The notes under the pieces are model-generated. The model worked only from the letters and a program-made list of their open reading frames with translations, was not told the DNA's origin and searched no databases. Positions 125 to 28,094 of a stretch of 30,416 nt of DNA are shown in pieces. Position 1 is the first letter of the stretch; every line of letters begins with the position of its first letter. Location of the stretch: IMG/VR virus record IMGVR_UViG_3300034072_002212, positions 1 through 30,416 of that record; one strand, 5' to 3'. The DNA comes from a virus. A program made the translations under genes and the position numbers.

Positions 125-164
125 CTGAGCTGGACTAACCAGTTCAATATTCATGGAGGGCATC

Positions 165-1340
165 ATGGCGAATCCACCTGATAAGTCGTGGACGACAAAC
201 GACGATCGCATTGATAACACGCGCCGCGCTTCGCGTGATACCTTCTATCACAAGCTAGAGAATCCCAAAGACTCTGGGTTCGATCCCGCCCGCCTTCAGG
301 CCTACGTTGGTCCTATCGGTCCCGAGGGTCCGCAGGGTCGCGCTGGTCCTCCAGGCCCAAAGGGCGATCTCGGCGACCAGGGACCTCAGGGTCCTATCGG
401 TCCTAAGGGACCAACTGGTGACCAGGGCCCCGTGGGTGATACTGGTCCCCGTGGCCCTAAGGGCAGTCAAGGTGATCCTGGTCCTCGAGGACCACAGGGA
501 CTCCAGGGTCCACCAGGACCACAGGGAGCCAAAGGTCTAGACGGGGACATGGGCCCCAAGGGCCCTACTGGCGATCCCGGTCCTCGAGGTCCGCAGGGTG
601 AAACTGGTCCAGCTGGTCCCAAGGGACCGCAAGGCGATCCTGGCCCACAGGGTCCGATTGGTCCTCAGGGCCTTCAGGGCCCCAAGGGACCAACCGGTGA
701 TACTGGTCTTCCCGGACCAGTAGGTGAACCCGGTGCTCCAGGCGCCGCAATCTATACCAATGTGATGTATATGACTGCCAGCATTCGTTACCGCAAGGTT
801 ACGATGGTCAATACTTCTGGTCAGACTGTAGCAACTTGGCTTCCGGCTATTAAGTGGGACAACCCAACCGATTGGACTCCACATGCTTCTGAACCTCTAA
901 CTGAACAGTGGCAGGAACTCACCATTCGTCCTAATGGAGTTACCACCCCAGCAGTTGGTACTTGGACCCATCCCTACAACTTCTTTACGCCAATAGCCTT
1001 TACTGATGGTTGTAGGAATCCAAACCAGAACACTCCCGGCAACGCTGGCTCAGTGGGAACCGTTATCACCTACGGCGGTCTCAAGGGTGGTGAGATCATC
1101 AACGGCCAGGTAGTTCTCTACAAGAGCTCTATCAATTCACGACAGGATCAGAGCGGCAGGCAAGTCCAGATCAAGTATTATTTCAATGATCTGGATATCG
1201 CATATCCACCAACTGCTGATTTGCCTCTTTATCAGGATGGTGATATTTGGAATGCCACAACTACCTATAAGGTTTCGGTGTGCTTCTTTGCCAATATCTC
1301 GCTCCAGGATACGGGCGCTCGTTACTATTATCAGAGCTGA
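165..1340 (+). CDS. Collagen-like tail fibre / virion fibre protein 1
   Basis: 391 residues. An N-terminal region of about 48 residues precedes 49 uninterrupted Gly-X-Y triplets (about 147 residues, rich in GPQ, GPK, GDT and GDP). A C-terminal domain of about 195 residues, rich in Tyr, Thr and Asn, follows. Collagen-like repeats in tailed phages form trimeric stalks in tail fibres or other surface fibres, with the C-terminal domain giving trimerisation or receptor binding. The ATG at 165 is preferred because GGAGGG at 155-160 gives correct ribosome-binding spacing; the in-frame ATG at 153 would overlap that site. A late-promoter motif lies upstream and a second collagen-like gene follows after 7 nt. 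The role as a fibre is inferred; the repeat is directly visible. Confidence 0.85.
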
Positions 1341-11020: not shown

Positions 11021-11281
11021 TTAGAAGGGAAAGTGACCCCACGAGTTACCGAAGAGCTTGCGAATGGTCGCAGCCTCCTCAGGTGTGATTTCCGTGACAG
11101 TGAAGTCATCGTCCTCGAAGTCGCCCTCGTCTTCCCAACCCTCGTTGGTGCCGAACATAAAGGTATGCTCCGAGAGGTCACCCTTCTCTTTCAGCCAGTC
11201 AGCTTCACTGTTGTAGATCTTGTAGCCATAGACATCGAACTCGTCGGCCCAATCCTTCTGGAACTTAACTAGCACTGGCAC
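11021..11281 (-). CDS. Small acidic phage protein, 86 aa
   Basis: The start is GTG at 11281 with AGGAG seven bases upstream; the frame stays open further but would overlap most of the acyltransferase 3' end. The opening VPVLVKFQKDWADEFDVYGY resembles uncharacterised proteins of many phages. The centre is very acidic (EGWEDEGDFEDDDF). It overlaps the upstream acyltransferase gene by 17 nt and the ADP-ribosylglycohydrolase start follows after 10 nt. Function unknown. Confidence 0.7.
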   Translation of the reverse strand: MPVLVKFQKDWADEFDVYGYKIYNSEADWLKEKGDLSEHTFMFGTNEGWEDEGDFEDDDFTVTEITPEEAATIRKLFGNSWGHFPF

Positions 11282-12041
11282 GGGTCTTCTCCTTTGCGAA
11301 ATGAACCATAGTCGAGGGTCCTGGGTCCACTCCCTTGGCTTCCGCGAAGAGCTTGCGCGTGGAACCTTCAATTGATTCCTCGAGCCGCTTCATGAACTCA
11401 GCCTTGGAAAGTCCAGGCGGGATGGGTTCAAGGTATTCCACGACAGCATTGCCGGGAGTCTTGTTGAACTGTGTCTGTTCCCAGAAGCAACCAAGGTTCG
11501 TCCCTGCAGGAACCACTGGCACATGGTGGGCGCTGTAGAGTGCGTAGATGCCCAGGCGGTAACGATGGTGCGTTCCTGGCTTTGAGAGGTGACCCTCAGG
11601 GTAGATGAGGATCCGCTTGCCTTCCGCGAATGCCTGCTCGGCACCTCGCATCAGGTCTTCCTTGCTCTGTCCACCGCCACAAGAGTCGACCACGATGGCG
11701 CCAATCTTGCGAAGCAATCCCTTGAGCAGCGGGATCTTTTCCAAGTGATTGCCGGTCACGAAGACCAGATCATCCACAACACTGAAGCTTGCGAAACCGT
11801 CACCCCAGCTCTGGTGCTTGGGAGCGAGAATGAAAGCACCCTTGGGTAAGTTCTCGAGTCCACGATGTTCCACGCGGATCCCAGCTACCGCCTTCATGGC
11901 CCAAAGCATTCTCTGGGCATAGCGACGCACGATCCAGCGCGTGATCAGCTTGCCAGGGAAGATCACCGAAAGCGTTGCCATGAACACATAGCTGACGCTC
12001 AGAAAATAGTAGGCGAACAGAAAGGCTGCGCTGCGGATCAC
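11265..12041 (-). CDS. PlsC-like 1-acyl-glycerol-3-phosphate acyltransferase
   Basis: 258 residues. A hydrophobic N-terminus (about 5-28) should anchor it in the inner membrane. The LPLAT motifs are present: HQSWGD (H76 and D81 of HX4D), YPEGH at 147-151 in place of FPEGT, and a VVPAGTN segment of motif IV. PlsC makes phosphatidic acid by acylating lysophosphatidic acid; relatives remodel other lysolipids. Phage-encoded members are uncommon and suggest alteration of host membrane lipids. The start is GTG at 12041, overlapping the upstream stop as GTGA, so translation is coupled. The EGH form of motif III leaves the exact substrate open. Confidence 0.85.
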   Translation of the reverse strand: MIRSAAFLFAYYFLSVSYVFMATLSVIFPGKLITRWIVRRYAQRMLWAMKAVAGIRVEHRGLENLPKGAFILAPKHQSWGDGFASFSVVDDLVFVTGNHLEKIPLLKGLLRKIGAIVVDSCGGGQSKEDLMRGAEQAFAEGKRILIYPEGHLSKPGTHHRYRLGIYALYSAHHVPVVPAGTNLGCFWEQTQFNKTPGNAVVEYLEPIPPGLSKAEFMKRLEESIEGSTRKLFAEAKGVDPGPSTMVHFAKEKTRASAS

Positions 12042-21262: not shown

Positions 21263-21280
21263 GAGGTCTCCAGAGACAAT

Positions 21281-21311
21281 AAGGGCTCGCTGTATTTACC
21301 AGCGAGCCCTT
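21281..21311 (-). terminator. 12-bp hairpin with a late promoter in its loop
   Basis: AAGGGCTCGCTG (21281-21292) and CAGCGAGCCCTT (21300-21311) pair perfectly. The 7-nt loop reads TATTTAC on the plus strand, so the minus strand carries GTAAATA there. The hairpin lies 37 nt after the DUF350 stop and is followed on the minus strand by ATTGTCT, a weak U tract. It may end the envelope-cassette message, while late transcription starting in the loop would escape the hairpin. Confidence 0.7.
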
Positions 21312-21348
21312 AATGTGTTCTAGGCCCTCTACGGGCTTCTGTGGACCC

Positions 21349-21795
21349 TTACGGGACCATGCAGGCCGCCTGGAGGATGCCGATGCCCAGACCGATGCCG
21401 CCGATGAAAACGCCCGAAGCCGAGCAGTTGTCCTCGATGCGCTTCTCGATTCCCGAGAACGCCTTGGCGATCACGAAGAACACCGCCAGCTGGACGACCA
21501 GCACGACCGCGCCCCAGAGGGCCATGTCGAAGATGCTGACCGAGTGGCCGATGACGATCGCCATCGGAACCGCGAAGCCGAGGAACGTGCCGACCAGCTG
21601 AGTTGCTGCCGCGGTGTTGCCGTTCTTGATCAGCGCGAATTCCTTGTGCGGCGTGATCAGGGTGTAGAGCACCAGGAAGACCACGGCCAGGAGCAGCGAG
21701 GCGCCGAAATAGCCGAGGAAGTGCGGGAGGGCGTCACCGAAATAAGCGACGATCGGGTTGGTGGTGGCCTCAGTGGCCGGAGCGGTGGTATTCAT
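21349..21795 (-). CDS. DUF350 (YjfL-like) integral membrane protein
   Basis: 148 residues with about four hydrophobic segments (roughly 24-45, 64-84, 90-112 and 128-147). The DUF350 signature ALIKNGNTAAATQLVGTFLG followed by PMAIVIGHS, and WGAVVLVVQLAVFFV, is clear. In bacteria DUF350 proteins are found beside glutathionylspermidine-synthase-like ATP-grasp enzymes and DUF1190 lipoproteins (the yjfL, yjfC and yjfM genes of E. coli), as here. GGAG lies before ATG 21795, 13 nt after the upstream ATP-grasp gene. Its molecular role is unknown; inner-membrane location is expected. Confidence 0.85.
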   Translation of the reverse strand: MNTTAPATEATTNPIVAYFGDALPHFLGYFGASLLLAVVFLVLYTLITPHKEFALIKNGNTAAATQLVGTFLGFAVPMAIVIGHSVSIFDMALWGAVVLVVQLAVFFVIAKAFSGIEKRIEDNCSASGVFIGGIGLGIGILQAACMVP

Positions 21796-21808
21796 TGCTG
21801 CGATCTCC

Positions 21809-22987
21809 TTATTCGCTGTCGGGCAGGAAGTAGTGAGGGATGAAGCGAGAAGTGTTGCCCGTCACCTCGCTCACGTCTTCGCGGATGCCCATGCCCGACG
21901 GGCGGCCGCCTACGATCCAGCTGCCGATGATCGGCGTCATGCCGTCGTGCTTCGGAAGCGGAAGGTATTCCTGGTAGATGGCCTTGGCCAGCGCATCATA
22001 GCCGCGCTTGACGCCCTCGACGGCGACCTTACCATCCCGAATGATCTTCACGTCTGCGCCCTCGCGCGCCAGCATGGGCTTCTCGACATAGTTGCCCTTG
22101 AGCGGCGCGCTCTGCCAGTAGGCCGGCAGCAGGTTCTCGTGACCCTCGTAGAGTTCCCAGAGGATGGGCAGGATGCCCTTGTTCGAGAGAACCAGCTTCC
22201 AGGCCGGCTCCAGAACGTCCCAGGGCTCCTTGAGCATGAACTTGCCGAAGTCCTCGCGGACCAGCCATTCCCAGGGATAGAGCTTGAAAATCGTGTTGAT
22301 CGGCTTCTCGTTGAGATCCGTGAACGAGGTGCCGTTCCAGCCGATCTGCTCGATATCGAGATAGTCGGTCTTGAGGCCGGCCTGGATCGCGCAGTCCCGG
22401 AGGTATTCCGCCGTGCCCTTGTCCTCGAGGTTCTCCGCGACCGCCGCGAAGTAGAACGTCTCGTTCGGGCCGAGCACCTGGTCGCCGACATACTTCAGCT
22501 GTTCGATCAGCCGCTCATGGATGCTGTTGAACTGATCGAGCGTCTGACCCGTGCGCTGGGCATACTGTTCCATCCAGAACCACTGGACGACCGATGCCTC
22601 GAGCAGCGAAGTCGGAGTGTCGGCGTTGAACTCCAGCATCTTGGGAGTGCCATCGGCCGCCAGAGCGAAGTCGAAGCGACCATAGAGGTCCACGTCCTGG
22701 CGCTCCCAGGACTTCTTGATCAGCGCGTGGAAGTCGGCGGGGATGGCGAGCTGGCTGAGCAGGTCACGCTCGATCGCATAGTCGACTGCCGAAAGGCACA
22801 TGCGATCGAGGACCGTGCTGGCTTCCTCGATCTTGTCGACTTCGCCGGCCGTGAATTCATATGCGTGGGTTTCATCCCAATACATGGGATCGACACCGGG
22901 GTCGGTTGCGAGGGTGTGCCAGTAGAAACCGACCTTCTCGCACTGTGCCTGCCAATCCGGCCGGGCTTCAATTGCCAAACGCTTCAA
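21809..22987 (-). CDS. Glutathionylspermidine synthase-like ATP-grasp amidoligase (YgiC/YjfC family)
   Basis: 392 residues, the length of YgiC and YjfC. MKRLAIEARPDWQAQCEKVGF at the N-terminus, DLYGRFDFALAADGTPKMLE, FNADTPTSLLEASVVQWFW, FKLYPWEWLVRE, EGHENLLPAYW, and KGNYVEKPMLAREGADVKI are family hallmarks that supply the ATP-grasp nucleotide and Mg sites. The amidase domain of true GspS is absent, as in YgiC/YjfC. It probably joins an amine to a peptide or protein carboxylate; the substrate is unknown. The start is TTG at 22987 with AGGAG six bases upstream, behind a TTGACT-TAGACA promoter. Confidence 0.88.
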   Translation of the reverse strand: MKRLAIEARPDWQAQCEKVGFYWHTLATDPGVDPMYWDETHAYEFTAGEVDKIEEASTVLDRMCLSAVDYAIERDLLSQLAIPADFHALIKKSWERQDVDLYGRFDFALAADGTPKMLEFNADTPTSLLEASVVQWFWMEQYAQRTGQTLDQFNSIHERLIEQLKYVGDQVLGPNETFYFAAVAENLEDKGTAEYLRDCAIQAGLKTDYLDIEQIGWNGTSFTDLNEKPINTIFKLYPWEWLVREDFGKFMLKEPWDVLEPAWKLVLSNKGILPILWELYEGHENLLPAYWQSAPLKGNYVEKPMLAREGADVKIIRDGKVAVEGVKRGYDALAKAIYQEYLPLPKHDGMTPIIGSWIVGGRPSGMGIREDVSEVTGNTSRFIPHYFLPDSE

Positions 22988-22994
22988 TTCGATC

Positions 22995-23042
22995 TCCTGT
23001 GATCCGTTGTCCTGTGTCTATGCGAAACAGGACCGAAGTCAA
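22995..23042 (-). promoter_or_regulatory. Sigma70-like promoter with alternative RBS hairpins
   Basis: TTGACT (23042-23037), 16 nt, TAGACA (23020-23015) on the minus strand. The spacer arm ACAGGAC (23027-23033) can pair with GTCCTGT (23009-23015). Its core can instead pair with TCCTGT at 22995-23000, which is the ribosome-binding site of the TTG-started ATP-grasp gene. Confidence 0.6.
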
Positions 23043-23054
23043 CCGCTTTGTGGC

Positions 23055-23528
23055 TTATTGTGGAACGCCTCGGGTAATCTGAACCACATCACCCACTTTC
23101 CAAGTGCTGTAGTCACCGGGCTGTCCACACGTGAACAAAACCTTGCCCCCTACAAGGGTGCCGTCAATCCACGTCGTCTTGTCATCATCCTTACCGGACA
23201 CTGACAACGCCTTGATTTCAATAGGAAGCTTACCTGAGCAAACTGCCTTGACGTCCACGGGATCGTATTCCTTACCAGGAACCCTGAACACCACACGGTC
23301 CTTGTAGACGATCTCGGGTGGCTTGACCCGCTTTTCGACCACTTCCTTGACCACAGTTTCTTTGCGCGTCACGGGGATCGCTCGGGCAATCAGGATACCA
23401 ATACCCGTGATTGCGCCGAGGATCACACCTGTGGTCACCACCGTGCGAAACGAACGCTGATCCCTTGGCCAGAAGTAGAAGCTGATTCCAAGAATCAGGA
23501 TCAGGAGAAAGGCCCAGAGAATCGACAT
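23055..23528 (-). CDS. Two-TM membrane protein of the envelope cassette, 157 aa
   Basis: Two N-terminal hydrophobic segments (about 2-19 and 31-51) with PRDQRSFR between them form a hairpin. A basic/acidic linker (RKETVVKEVVEKRVK) and a soluble C-terminal domain follow, with two Cys (in AVCSG and FTCGQ). With a short loop and two crossings, N- and C-termini are on the same side. AAGGAAC precedes ATG 23528, 9 nt after the lipoprotein stop. No named family is recognised; its role is tied to the cassette by position. Confidence 0.7.
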   Translation of the reverse strand: MSILWAFLLILILGISFYFWPRDQRSFRTVVTTGVILGAITGIGILIARAIPVTRKETVVKEVVEKRVKPPEIVYKDRVVFRVPGKEYDPVDVKAVCSGKLPIEIKALSVSGKDDDKTTWIDGTLVGGKVLFTCGQPGDYSTWKVGDVVQITRGVPQ

Positions 23529-23537
23529 AATCGTTCC

Positions 23538-24068
23538 TTAACCGGCCTTGCGGCCCGACTGGCCAACGATGGGTAGATCAGCCGGCGAGGATGCCTCGGG
23601 GGTTGGGGTGGCGACCGGAGCCGGCGTTTCCGTCGGCGTTGGGGTCGGGGTAGGGGTTGGCGTTGCGACCGGCTTGGGCTCGTCCGGCTGATAGAACGGA
23701 CTCACACCAATCGGGCTGAGCCCGAGCCGCTGAGCATATTCCTGGAGCGTGAGACCTTCCATCCACAAGACGCAGTTTGCCTGCGCGTTCGTGTATTGGA
23801 GAGTCTGCTGGCCGAAGTTCGTGACATCGCTGTCCTTACGGAAAACTCGGACACCAGCAGCCAGGGCCTCAGGGGTCAGCAGCCGCGCGCGAAGGTCACC
23901 CGTGACCTCGGACGACACATAGACGCCCATGTTGCTGGCAGGAATACACCGACCGGCCTTGCCTGCGAGATCCACTGCCTGGACGTTCACCGGCGCGTTG
24001 GGATTGGACTCCGCGCAGCCGGCCAACAGGAGGCCGACTGCGAGAGTGCCCAGGATTGCGGCGCGCAT
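23538..24068 (-). CDS. Lipoprotein with Pro-Thr repeat tail, 176 aa
   Basis: MRAAILGTLAVGLLLAGCAE is a lipoprotein signal with lipobox LAGC. A soluble domain of about 115 residues contains two further Cys (in GRCIPAS and ANCVLWM). It is followed by a Pro-Thr dipeptide run (about 135-145) and an Ala/Pro/Ser tail, which looks like a wall- or envelope-spanning linker. The start codon overlaps the stop of the DUF1190 gene as TAATG, so both are made from one message and probably work together. Family not recognised. Confidence 0.75.
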   Translation of the reverse strand: MRAAILGTLAVGLLLAGCAESNPNAPVNVQAVDLAGKAGRCIPASNMGVYVSSEVTGDLRARLLTPEALAAGVRVFRKDSDVTNFGQQTLQYTNAQANCVLWMEGLTLQEYAQRLGLSPIGVSPFYQPDEPKPVATPTPTPTPTPTETPAPVATPTPEASSPADLPIVGQSGRKAG

Positions 24069-24835
24069 TAGCCGCCGAACCCACCGCCGAAGCTACGACC
24101 CGAGGCGCCGAAACCACCGCGCGAGCTGATGCTCGACGAGGCCTTGTAGCTGGAGCCGCTCGAATAGCTCTTGCCCGCCGTGCTGCCGGTCGAACGCGAG
24201 TAGGACGAGTTGCCGAAGCTGCTGGGGTTGGTCGCCTGGTAGGACGACTTGAAACTCTGCGTGGGCTTGAACGACGAACCGAAGCCGCCGCGAACGCTCG
24301 AGGGCGGCGTCATTGCCGTGCTGGACTTCAGCGCGCCCTTGGTGGAAACGCCCGTGCCAGCGGTGCTGCGGTAGGGTGCTGCGCCGATGGGAGCATTGCG
24401 GGCATAGCCAGCGCCCGACGTGTAGATCGGCGCCTGGTAGTCCCGACGATCACGGTAGCGATAGGAGCCCGGACCGTAATAGAGAGGAGCCGGCGTCGAG
24501 AGAGCCGAACCCATCATGTAGCCCATCATCATGGGCACGAAGAAGTTGCCGCTGCCGCCATATGCCGAGATCGGCTGGCACATATCCGGACCATACTCCT
24601 GGCGGCACGCCTCGATCGAGGCATAGCGCGGAGCATTGTTGACGTGTTCGGTGCGGGCGAGGCGGTCAGCCGCATCGCAGGTTGCCTGGTCATAGACCGC
24701 GACGCATTCCGCCTTGTTCGCGAAAGTGCCGCCGTTGTCCGCGGGCGCCGGGGGTGCTTGTTCGCAACCCGAGAGCGTTGCCGCGGCACTGACGCTGGCC
24801 AAGAGGACCAGCGAAACTCGGGTGCTGCGCTTCAT
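24068..24835 (-). CDS. DUF1190 (YgiB/YjfM-like) lipoprotein
   Basis: 255 residues. MKRSTRVSLVLLASVSAAATLSGCE carries a lipobox (LSGC). The YgiB pattern follows: KAECVAVYDQATCDAADR, APRYASIEACRQEYGPDMCQ, FFVPMMMGYMMG (the family hallmark), and a Gly/Ser/Tyr-rich tail with RGGFG repeats ending in GGGFGG. Four conserved Cys in the first part could form disulphides. E. coli YgiB sits next to YgiC; the same pairing with an ATP-grasp enzyme is preserved here in a phage. AAGGAA precedes ATG 24835. Outer-membrane or periplasmic location is expected. Confidence 0.82.
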   Translation of the reverse strand: MKRSTRVSLVLLASVSAAATLSGCEQAPPAPADNGGTFANKAECVAVYDQATCDAADRLARTEHVNNAPRYASIEACRQEYGPDMCQPISAYGGSGNFFVPMMMGYMMGSALSTPAPLYYGPGSYRYRDRRDYQAPIYTSGAGYARNAPIGAAPYRSTAGTGVSTKGALKSSTAMTPPSSVRGGFGSSFKPTQSFKSSYQATNPSSFGNSSYSRSTGSTAGKSYSSGSSYKASSSISSRGGFGASGRSFGGGFGG

Positions 24836-24879: not shown

Positions 24880-24907
24880 ATTTGCTGGGTATAGGTGTGT
24901 TTGTCAA
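24880..24907 (-). promoter_or_regulatory. Possible promoter of the envelope cassette (clear -35, weak -10)
   Basis: TTGACA at 24907-24902 overlaps the stop of the upstream 24904-25137 gene. At 16-nt spacing the -10 would be GCAAAT, which is poor. A small hairpin (AAGGCA at 24853-24858 with TGCCTT at 24862-24867) lies in the leader before the DUF1190 start. Confidence 0.4.
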
Positions 24908-25137
24908 CCGTTCTTTGGGCGAAAATCCACCACCAGCAAATTATCAGTCTTTTCAACAATGCGCTGGTCAGGCTGAGCTTCTTCAGCAGCTTCAGCGGTC
25001 AGGTCGAGATGTAGGAACAAATTCTCAATCTGCTCAAGATCCACATTGCTGTGTTCATAGTTGCAGAGGAAGTAGTCAACCGCGAGGGCGATGATATTGA
25101 GCTCCTCGAGGGTTAGTTCGTCAATTTTGTAGTTCAT
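24904..25137 (-). CDS. Small acidic protein, 77 aa
   Basis: MNYKIDELTLEELNIIALAV opens a helical, Leu- and Glu-rich protein; the pattern of a conserved helix with FLCNYEHSN resembles small phage regulatory or host-takeover proteins only in size. The ATG at 25137 has GGTGAG five bases upstream; a TTG at 25149 in frame overlaps that site. A 5' hairpin with a GAAA loop immediately precedes the ribosome-binding site. No family is recognised. Confidence 0.65.
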   Translation of the reverse strand: MNYKIDELTLEELNIIALAVDYFLCNYEHSNVDLEQIENLFLHLDLTAEAAEEAQPDQRIVEKTDNLLVVDFRPKNG

Positions 25138-25146
25138 AGAGCTCAC

Positions 25147-25175
25147 CAAAAAGAGGAGAAGTTTCCTTCTCCCCT
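25147..25175 (-). terminator. Hairpin with GAAA tetraloop and U5 tract (terminator or 5' leader hairpin)
   Basis: On the minus strand AGGGGAGAAG pairs with CTTCTCCTCT through ten pairs (one G-U) closed by a GAAA loop, followed by TTTTTGG. It fits a Rho-independent terminator for the 25206-26099 gene. The TATAAA box at 25180-25175 overlaps its base, so a message started there would carry a shorter version of the hairpin at its 5' end. Confidence 0.75.
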
Positions 25176-25205: not shown

Positions 25206-26099
25206 TTATCCCTGCCAGCCCGGAGGCGGAGTGCATCCCACACCAGCGAAAGCCTGAGGCAAATCGTTGATATGACGCTGTTCCTTCTTCACTACCTCAA
25301 TCCCGCGAGCCTGAAGGTTACGACGGCTATCATAGTAGAGAACCATCGTCGCAACCACAGGACCACGCTCAAAAGAAACTTCCTGGGTCTTGAACTGCGA
25401 ACGCTCACCGAAACCAGCGCCCATTTCAAAGGCGTTCTCCAGAGGAGCAGGGTTGCTCACAATGCTGTCGGCCTGAACGCTGTTGTTGGCTTGTGCCGTT
25501 GATGCGCTGAGCGTTGCGGTCGCGCTGGCGCTCATGCCACGCATCACGCCCTTGGGGATTGCCGAATCAGCAGTTCCACCCAGGGCAACCGTATTGTCCG
25601 CCGACCACCAGGGCTGCTGGGGGTTGAAAGGATCATAGGGAGAGCGCGGCCAAGTAGGCTGCGGACGTGGCTGATAGTAGTGGTGATAGTGGACAGGCTT
25701 GGGCTTTTCCACCTCGCTGTAGACGAGAACACCGATGACACCCGACTGGACAGCTTCTCCCTCTTGAACAGTCTGAGCCGCATAGCTCTTTTCCTTGTCC
25801 TCAAAGGTGAACTTCGCAACGTCGTTGCTGTCTAGGGTCCAGCCAGGAATGCGGATGCTTCCCCAGGCACGAACCACATAGCCGCGGCTCTCGGGAGTTG
25901 CGGGCTTGCCGTCCAGAACACTCTTGCCGTCCACACTTGGGACAACAAGGACCTGCTTGCCGGTCTTGTTCTTGAACTCCACCTCGAACTCAGAACCCTT
26001 GCGGCCCTCGACGAAGATGTTGTCGTTGTGCTGATATTCGGTGATTGGCTTGCCAGCCACTAGGACGTTGAGCTCATAGGCTCGTGTTGCATTGAACAT
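25206..26099 (-). CDS. Conserved beta-rich protein of unknown function, 297 aa
   Basis: MFNATRAYELNVLVAGKPIT opens an N-terminal domain of about 130 residues with beta-strand patterns (EFEVEFKNKTGKQVLVVPSV, GYVVRAWGSIRIPGW). A His/Pro/Tyr-rich linker follows (about 137-165, HYHHYYQPRPQP), then an Ala/Ser/Thr-rich stretch and a C-terminal module with VVATMVLYYDSRRNLQARGI. Similar openings occur in uncharacterised bacterial and phage proteins. AAGGAG precedes ATG 26099. A GCTAAATA late motif is 94 nt upstream, suggesting late, perhaps structural, expression. Confidence 0.7.
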   Translation of the reverse strand: MFNATRAYELNVLVAGKPITEYQHNDNIFVEGRKGSEFEVEFKNKTGKQVLVVPSVDGKSVLDGKPATPESRGYVVRAWGSIRIPGWTLDSNDVAKFTFEDKEKSYAAQTVQEGEAVQSGVIGVLVYSEVEKPKPVHYHHYYQPRPQPTWPRSPYDPFNPQQPWWSADNTVALGGTADSAIPKGVMRGMSASATATLSASTAQANNSVQADSIVSNPAPLENAFEMGAGFGERSQFKTQEVSFERGPVVATMVLYYDSRRNLQARGIEVVKKEQRHINDLPQAFAGVGCTPPPGWQG

Positions 26100-27779: not shown

Positions 27780-28073
27780 TCAAGCCTTTTCGACAATAGC
27801 CTTGAGGGGATGCTTATAGGACTTGGCGACCGTGTTGGTCTCATAGACCTTCTGCTCGGCGACTTCCTTGCTGTAGGTGCCGCAGATGCCCCGACCCTGA
27901 TGGTGAACGTCCATGCAGAGCTTGTGCGCTTCTGCGTGGCTCTTGCTGAAGATCTCCATCAGCACCTGGATCACGAAGTCCATGGGCGTGAAGTCATCGT
28001 TCAGGATCACAACCTTGTAGAGGCTGGGAACCTTCAGCTTGGTTACAGTCTGAGTGTCGAGTGCGGTGCTCAT
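27780..28073 (-). CDS. clpS: ClpS-like adaptor protein
   Basis: 97 residues. SLYKVVILNDDFTPMDFVIQ (17-36), AHKLCMDVHHQGRGICGTYS and EVAEQKVYETN cover the full ClpS core. The N-degron pocket residues N25, D26, D27, T29, M31, V56 and H57 match E. coli N34, D35, D36, T38, M40, V65 and H66. The position of M62 is Cys53. ClpS delivers proteins with destabilising N-terminal residues to ClpA(C)P and blocks other substrates. A phage copy could redirect host proteolysis. ATG 28073 has AAGGAG seven bases upstream, behind a TTGATT-TATGTA promoter. Confidence 0.9.
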   Translation of the reverse strand: MSTALDTQTVTKLKVPSLYKVVILNDDFTPMDFVIQVLMEIFSKSHAEAHKLCMDVHHQGRGICGTYSKEVAEQKVYETNTVAKSYKHPLKAIVEKA

Positions 28074-28094
28074 GTGGTCTCCTTGGTTCACACC

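Follow-up and report, generated by a model that had tools for sequence, protein, structure and literature searches.

An operon on the minus strand at positions 21349-24835 of a 30,416-nucleotide stretch of phage DNA (called the window below; bases 1-30416 of the 181,816-base viral record IMGVR_UViG_3300034072_002212, or G000) is a variant, adapted in phage, of a known bacterial gene module. Its five adjoining open reading frames (ORFs) code for a DUF1190 lipoprotein, two proteins that we named LP176 and TM157, an ATP-grasp ligase of the YgiC/YjfC type and a DUF350 membrane protein (Table 1). The gene content, gene order and conservation of this cassette, the intact active site of its ligase and its linkage to polyamine genes were all established by computation. 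We give an even chance to the reading that the operon is a phage-adapted module for polyamine-peptide conjugation at the envelope.

The ligase is a single-domain protein of 392 aa whose match to PF03738 extends over the whole profile (positions 1-371 of 371); its nearest relatives in the PDB are E. coli YgiC (7uk8, E=5e-91) and YjfC (7uk6). The ATP/Mg and catalytic motifs (R-x-D, E-x-N, two Lys and GIR-E) are present and recur in the YgiC, YjfC and TryS alignments. Residues R104, D106, E119, N121, K270, K303 and R369 show little or no variation (each conserved in 140-142 of 142 homologues) and presumably correspond to the residues of Gsp that are known to bind ATP and Mg or to act in catalysis. 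A preliminary description of the window had named missing active-site residues as a possible objection; all catalytic residues were found in place. Judged from its sequence, the ligase is an intact member of the YgiC/YjfC-type family, because its catalytic, ATP and Mg residues are invariant, and the amine or peptide ligase chemistry envisaged in that description gains support from the family match and the complete set of active-site residues. Identity with the bifunctional Gsp was rejected, as there is no amidase domain and the partial match to NF007801 scores 127.6 bits against a cut-off of 882. Ligases of this kind were detected in 137 phage records, many of them annotated as glutathionylspermidine synthase. 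The earlier statement that the function of these families is not known is outdated: the structures of YgiC and YjfC have been solved, and the two E. coli enzymes are described as peptidyl-polyamine synthetases or peptide-spermidine ligases (PMC12568646, ref. 48). Homology and gene linkage together point to a polyamine as the probable substrate of the phage ligase.

Linkage to polyamine genes is seen in bacteria and in phages. SpeD and SpeE lie directly upstream of DUF1190-ligase-DUF350 in 6 of 80 bacterial loci, in three of them as a SpeD-SpeE fusion; Pfam verified all genes of one operon with separate speD and speE (L140) and of one with the fusion (L147). Homospermidine synthase is upstream of the same three genes in two bacterial loci (L166 and L186), and among phages Motura, L042 and L083 have it next to the cassette. 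In L013-L019 and L027 a SpeD homologue and the ligase are 3-8 kb apart, and the window phage and each of the four contigs most closely related to it encode one such homologue. The polyamine genes lie outside the window and were therefore invisible to the preliminary description. Among phage records with the ligase and of at least 100 kb, the only ones counted (which limits fragment bias), SpeD or homospermidine synthase is present in 11 of the 11 with a full-length DUF350 versus 4 of the 22 without. After clustering at 75% ligase identity the proportions are 5/5 versus 3/21 (Fisher P = 8.5e-4), in a test that was made after the pattern had been seen and that does not fully remove shared ancestry. 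DUF350 and DUF1190, which are common around YgiC-type ligases, are now tied to polyamine synthesis both by the statistics of co-occurrence and by the layout of operons, and this tie provides a concrete, testable substrate class for the DUF350/DUF1190 module.

In alignment, the SpeD homologue of G000 retains the Ser that forms the pyruvoyl group as well as the His and Cys needed for catalysis, and it has HTWDE in place of HTWPE, i.e. Asp for Pro. It groups with the enzyme of pelagiphage HTVC201P (support 0.93) and misses the NCBIfam cut-off for S-adenosylmethionine (AdoMet) decarboxylase, AdoMetDC (56.5 bits versus 75.65). The HTVC201P enzyme is a measured arginine decarboxylase, and related freshwater-phage enzymes decarboxylate ornithine (PMC9992855); according to PMC10407285, AdoMetDC can be told apart from arginine decarboxylases by a conserved Pro, which we assume is the Pro of HTWPE. 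The probable substrate of the G000 homologue is arginine or ornithine, not AdoMet, and agmatine or putrescine is its more likely product because of the HTWDE motif, the grouping with HTVC201P and the AdoMetDC score below cut-off. A very divergent SpeD type (TS-N/A-I..H, DVFSC) occurs in L013, L018, L027 and relatives (G006, G007, G014 and G022; also G034). It is the copy nearest the cassette in G006, G007, G014 and G022, the G034 copy is of the same type, and a separate, typical AdoMetDC coexists with it in the G006 and G015 genomes. Genes of the arginase/agmatinase family were observed in two cassette-bearing jumbo phages (G009:65601-66419 and G015:113329-114135); as a general partner this family was discarded, since only 2 of 17 records have it.

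The preliminary description regarded the five genes as a complete set. The core, DUF1190-ligase-DUF350, is widespread, whereas no LP176 or TM157 was found outside this phage lineage. A DUF1190-like gene precedes the ligase in 61 of 79 dereplicated bacterial loci and DUF350 lies within 3 kb in 41; for 63 phage loci the figures are 46 and 17. The DUF1190 counts come from an iterated profile that reaches short divergent lipoproteins and are looser than those of Pfam, whose own model matched in 26 of 61 phage records. In the window DUF1190, ligase and DUF350 lie on one strand, as expected of a ygiB/ygiC/yjfL-type cluster, and the commonest bacterial order is the phage order minus LP176-TM157. More distant phages in many cases have just DUF1190 and the ligase, a partial occurrence of the kind held out earlier as an objection, but the two genes are adjacent and not at unrelated loci. 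In G016-G020, G026 and G052, single ORFs match no more than roughly half of the DUF350 profile, equal to some two transmembrane (TM) helices, and DUF350 may be split or halved there.

The window phage encodes tail sheath, structural proteins and ribonucleotide reductase. The nearest relatives of G000, with ligases 79-85% identical, are four IMG/VR contigs (L008-L011) that measure 416-465 kb, and G000 itself thus probably represents a piece of a jumbo-phage genome. A Megablast comparison of the window with phage records gave no matches. The premise of a lytic phage agrees with the lack of any integrase domain among 12 records searched, several of them fragments. A search for conserved linkage, as proposed in the preliminary description, found all five genes in the same order in L008-L011, and in a fifth contig, L012 (ligase identity 58%), the cassette without TM157. 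Spacing between DUF1190 and LP176 is -1 or -4 nt in five relatives, and overlap or close spacing is kept, with the exception of 265 nt between the ligase gene and DUF350 in L009. In comparisons of relatives with the window, the nonsynonymous rate (dN) is below the synonymous rate (dS) for every cassette gene, with dS near or at saturation: dN/dS is 0.06-0.17 for the ligase, 0.21-0.43 for DUF350 and 0.15-0.37 for DUF1190, and for LP176 and TM157 dS is saturated or nearly so. By this measure the cassette is under purifying selection.

A higher GC content had been taken to fit acquisition from a bacterium. The cassette as a whole is richer in GC than the record (61.4% versus 53.9%), but TM157 is ordinary: among 156 genes DUF1190 and LP176 rank 1 and 2, DUF350 6 and the ligase gene 13, whereas TM157 ranks 92. 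An offset of about 5-8 points between cassette and flanks is also kept in relatives with a locus GC of 47 to 54%. A phylogeny of 142 ligases puts the window sequence in a six-phage clade (support 0.999) without a supported bacterial sister, and its best bacterial identity is 48%; on these two results a recent gain from a bacterium was rejected as unsupported. The cassette would be a long resident of the phage lineage, which fits the phage-only ligase clade, the ordinary GC of TM157 and the similar offset in relatives. DUF1190-ligase(-DUF350) is an old module common to phages and bacteria.

Lipoboxes and TM helices would place DUF1190, LP176, TM157 and DUF350 at the envelope, and we infer their roles. 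In an alignment of six phages, two Cys of the mature LP176 domain are invariant, whereas the Pro/Thr-rich tail differs in length and sequence. The beta domain of TM157 holds two invariant Cys as well and is predicted to be periplasmic, because basic residues lie between the two TM segments (positive-inside rule). Neither protein matches a Pfam family above cut-off. The fold check suggested for them yielded only low-confidence AlphaFold2 models (mean predicted local distance difference test, pLDDT, 66 for TM157 and 68 for LP176), with which Foldseek found no match below E=0.001. Apart from the window phage, LP176 turned up in just five phage contigs and TM157 in just four; searches of viral contigs and of 80 bacterial loci gave no homologues beyond these close phages (whole bacterial genomes being unscanned). 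As phage-only partners, the two may mark which step faces the periplasm.

A possible mechanism can be outlined, in which we infer the substrates, the direction of transport and the effect on infection. The cytoplasmic ATP-grasp enzyme would phosphorylate a carboxylate group on its acceptor, which would be a peptide or resemble one, and then couple the activated acceptor to a polyamine, as reported for YgiC/YjfC with spermidine; the SpeD-family decarboxylase of the phage could add to the amine supply. The conserved envelope end, responsible for export, sensing or retention of the conjugate, would consist of DUF350, seated in the inner membrane, and the lipoprotein DUF1190, and the phage-specific TM157 and LP176 would extend the module to the periplasm and a second lipoprotein. 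The probable outcome would be an infected-cell envelope with changed charge or stability. We also advance tentatively, and consider unlikely, a bolder version in which jumbo phages run a pathway of their own: the arginine/ornithine-shifted decarboxylase would supply the amine, the ligase would attach it to a cell-envelope peptide and the two phage-specific periplasmic proteins would steer the product, thus remodelling the envelope of the infected cell. If true, this would be envelope-remodelling chemistry so far undescribed for phages. The gene contexts found here suggest in any case that phages add conjugation to the polyamine reactions already known from them.

Several points weigh against conjugation at the envelope. 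The identity of the ligase to YgiC is moderate; neither DUF350 nor DUF1190 has an assigned activity, and a search for solved relatives of the two in the PDB returned none that was convincing. The SpeD gene of G000 is 12.8 kb from the cassette, outside the operon, and spermidine synthase was not found in 13 phage records, so that spermidine would have to be derived from the host. The co-occurrence of DUF350 with polyamine genes weakens on strong clustering (P = 0.014-0.024; at 55% identity 3/3 versus 1/10, P = 0.014), and the polyamine genes might serve DNA packaging or translation instead. The same linkage to SpeD, SpeE and homospermidine synthase would also be expected if the ligase served polyamine homeostasis, turning surplus polyamine into a soluble conjugate for storage or removal, in the way that Gsp makes glutathionylspermidine, with the envelope genes exporting or sensing polyamine and no modification of the envelope. 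Phages are known to encode polyamine synthesis and sequestration via spermidine N-acetyltransferase (PMC9992855). We regard homeostasis as possible though on the unlikely side: a purely soluble store hardly accounts for the lipoprotein that is conserved ahead of the ligase at most loci, or for two additional proteins that are secreted or lie in the membrane.

The cassette could alternatively be an envelope-stress or superinfection module, a mimic of a host operon linked to the phage-shock-protein (PSP) system that stabilizes the membrane while infection proceeds or excludes other phages. Superinfection exclusion by a lipoprotein is a common phage strategy. Bacterial operons do combine ATP-grasp, DUF350 and DUF1190 with PspA/CesT (PMC11237479), but a PspA homologue was found in none of 13 phage records (G000 being a fragment), and a PspA partnership was rejected. 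No PADLOC model for known anti-phage defence proteins matched; the roles in blocking other phages, resisting defence or timing lysis proposed in the preliminary description find no direct support. Envelope stress alone would, moreover, leave the polyamine genes unexplained, and we consider this explanation decidedly unlikely. Very improbable in our view is polyamination of a cassette or host protein by the ligase, at the C-terminus or a side chain (LP176, TM157 or DUF1190). Peptide-amine ligase chemistry and the translational coupling of the neighbouring lipoprotein genes would suit it, but no conserved modification motif was identified, the LP176 tails vary, and the lipoproteins are exported whereas the ligase is predicted to be cytoplasmic.

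The minus-strand set of five genes and its assignment to YgiB/YgiC/YjfL-type families were upheld: the ORFs are at their coordinates and Pfam gives strong scores for DUF1190, GSP_synth and DUF350. So was the tight linkage, as the DUF1190 stop and LP176 start overlap as TAATG at 24066-24070 and the gap between LP176 and TM157 is 9 nt; the other gaps are 67 nt (TM157-ligase) and 13 nt (ligase-DUF350), and the TTG start of the ligase has a GGAG ribosome site upstream. The transcription unit is probably p81-DUF1190-LP176-TM157-ligase-DUF350, because terminator-like hairpins frame p81 to DUF350. The scan returned 10 sites versus 4.4 +/- 2.3 in shuffles, the 13-bp hairpin having by far the longest stem. 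A related hairpin follows DUF350 in L008, and hairpins are also present at the place of the upstream one in L008, L009 and L011. The p81 gene has no Pfam family and keeps its position in L008-L012; p81, p297 and a DUF3307 gene upstream of the cassette are also kept in L008-L011.

Table 1. Features of the operon and its surroundings (window positions unless stated)
Feature	Position	Strand	Evidence or remark
DUF350 (YjfL-type) multi-TM membrane protein	21349..21795	-	PF03994 E=9.8e-33
YgiC/YjfC-type ATP-grasp ligase (GSP_synth), TTG start	21809..22987	-	PF03738 E=3e-136
TM157, two TM helices and small beta domain	23055..23528	-	ORF, alignment, AlphaFold2 model
LP176, second lipoprotein, lipobox LAGC	23538..24068	-	ORF and six-phage alignment
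DUF1190 (YgiB-type) lipoprotein, lipobox LSGC	24068..24835	-	PF06693 E=2.6e-26
p81, 81 aa, probable first gene of unit	24904..25149	-	68 nt before DUF1190, after hairpin 25154-25175
Terminator-like hairpin after DUF350, 13-bp stem	21280..21312	- (scored on both strands)	terminator scan
Terminator-like hairpin upstream of p81	25154..25175	-	terminator scan
p297 (297 aa), conserved neighbour, membership uncertain (hairpin intervenes)	25206..26099	-	kept near cassette in relatives
SpeD homologue	G000:37662-38084 (= L097:7662-8084), outside window	-	12.8 kb upstream of DUF1190

The p297 gene is upstream of the cassette in L008-L012 and also 4.6-7.3 kb upstream of it in L013-L016, L018, L019 and L027. 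Elsewhere, a ClpS adaptor (PF02617; window 27780-28091) and a ClpX-like unfoldase (zf-C4_ClpX, AAA_2; L097:4762-6018) lie about 6.7 kb apart, a pair that suggests control of host proteolysis. A PlsC-like acyltransferase (PF01553; window 11265-12041), possibly a membrane-lipid enzyme, is on the same strand as the cassette, and two adjoining proteins with collagen triple-helix repeats (PF01391) are encoded at window 153-1340 and 1348-2586.

In a limited literature search, which is no proof of absence, no report was found of DUF350 and DUF1190 in a phage module, of LP176/TM157 or of the phage DUF350-polyamine co-occurrence; the phage ligase is remarked on in PMC5587285. Among known systems, E. 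coli YgiC/YjfC with their YgiB and YjfL/YjfM neighbours share with the phage the same Pfam families and a DUF1190 gene adjoining the ligase, and the enzymes themselves (7uk8, 7uk6) share full-length homology and active-site residues. Unlike E. coli, the phage inserts LP176 and TM157 between DUF1190 and a ligase of moderate identity, and it encodes in addition a decarboxylase for which another substrate is predicted. Bifunctional Gsp (synthetase/amidase) has the synthetase-domain family in common with the phage ligase, which is without the amidase domain. The PspA/CesT operons in which Ravi et al. listed ATP-grasp, DUF350 and DUF1190, linked to polyamine genes (PMC11237479), resemble the phage in all these respects but differ in PspA, absent from the 13 phage records. 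Li et al. reported the hss-gss cluster of Achromobacter phage Motura and suggested glutathionylhomospermidine (PMC9992855); we find that this cluster also contains DUF1190-like and DUF350 genes. Motura resembles the window phage in carrying a ligase within a gene cluster, but its partner there is homospermidine synthase, in place of which the window phage has a distant SpeD; the window phage has LP176 and TM157 in addition.

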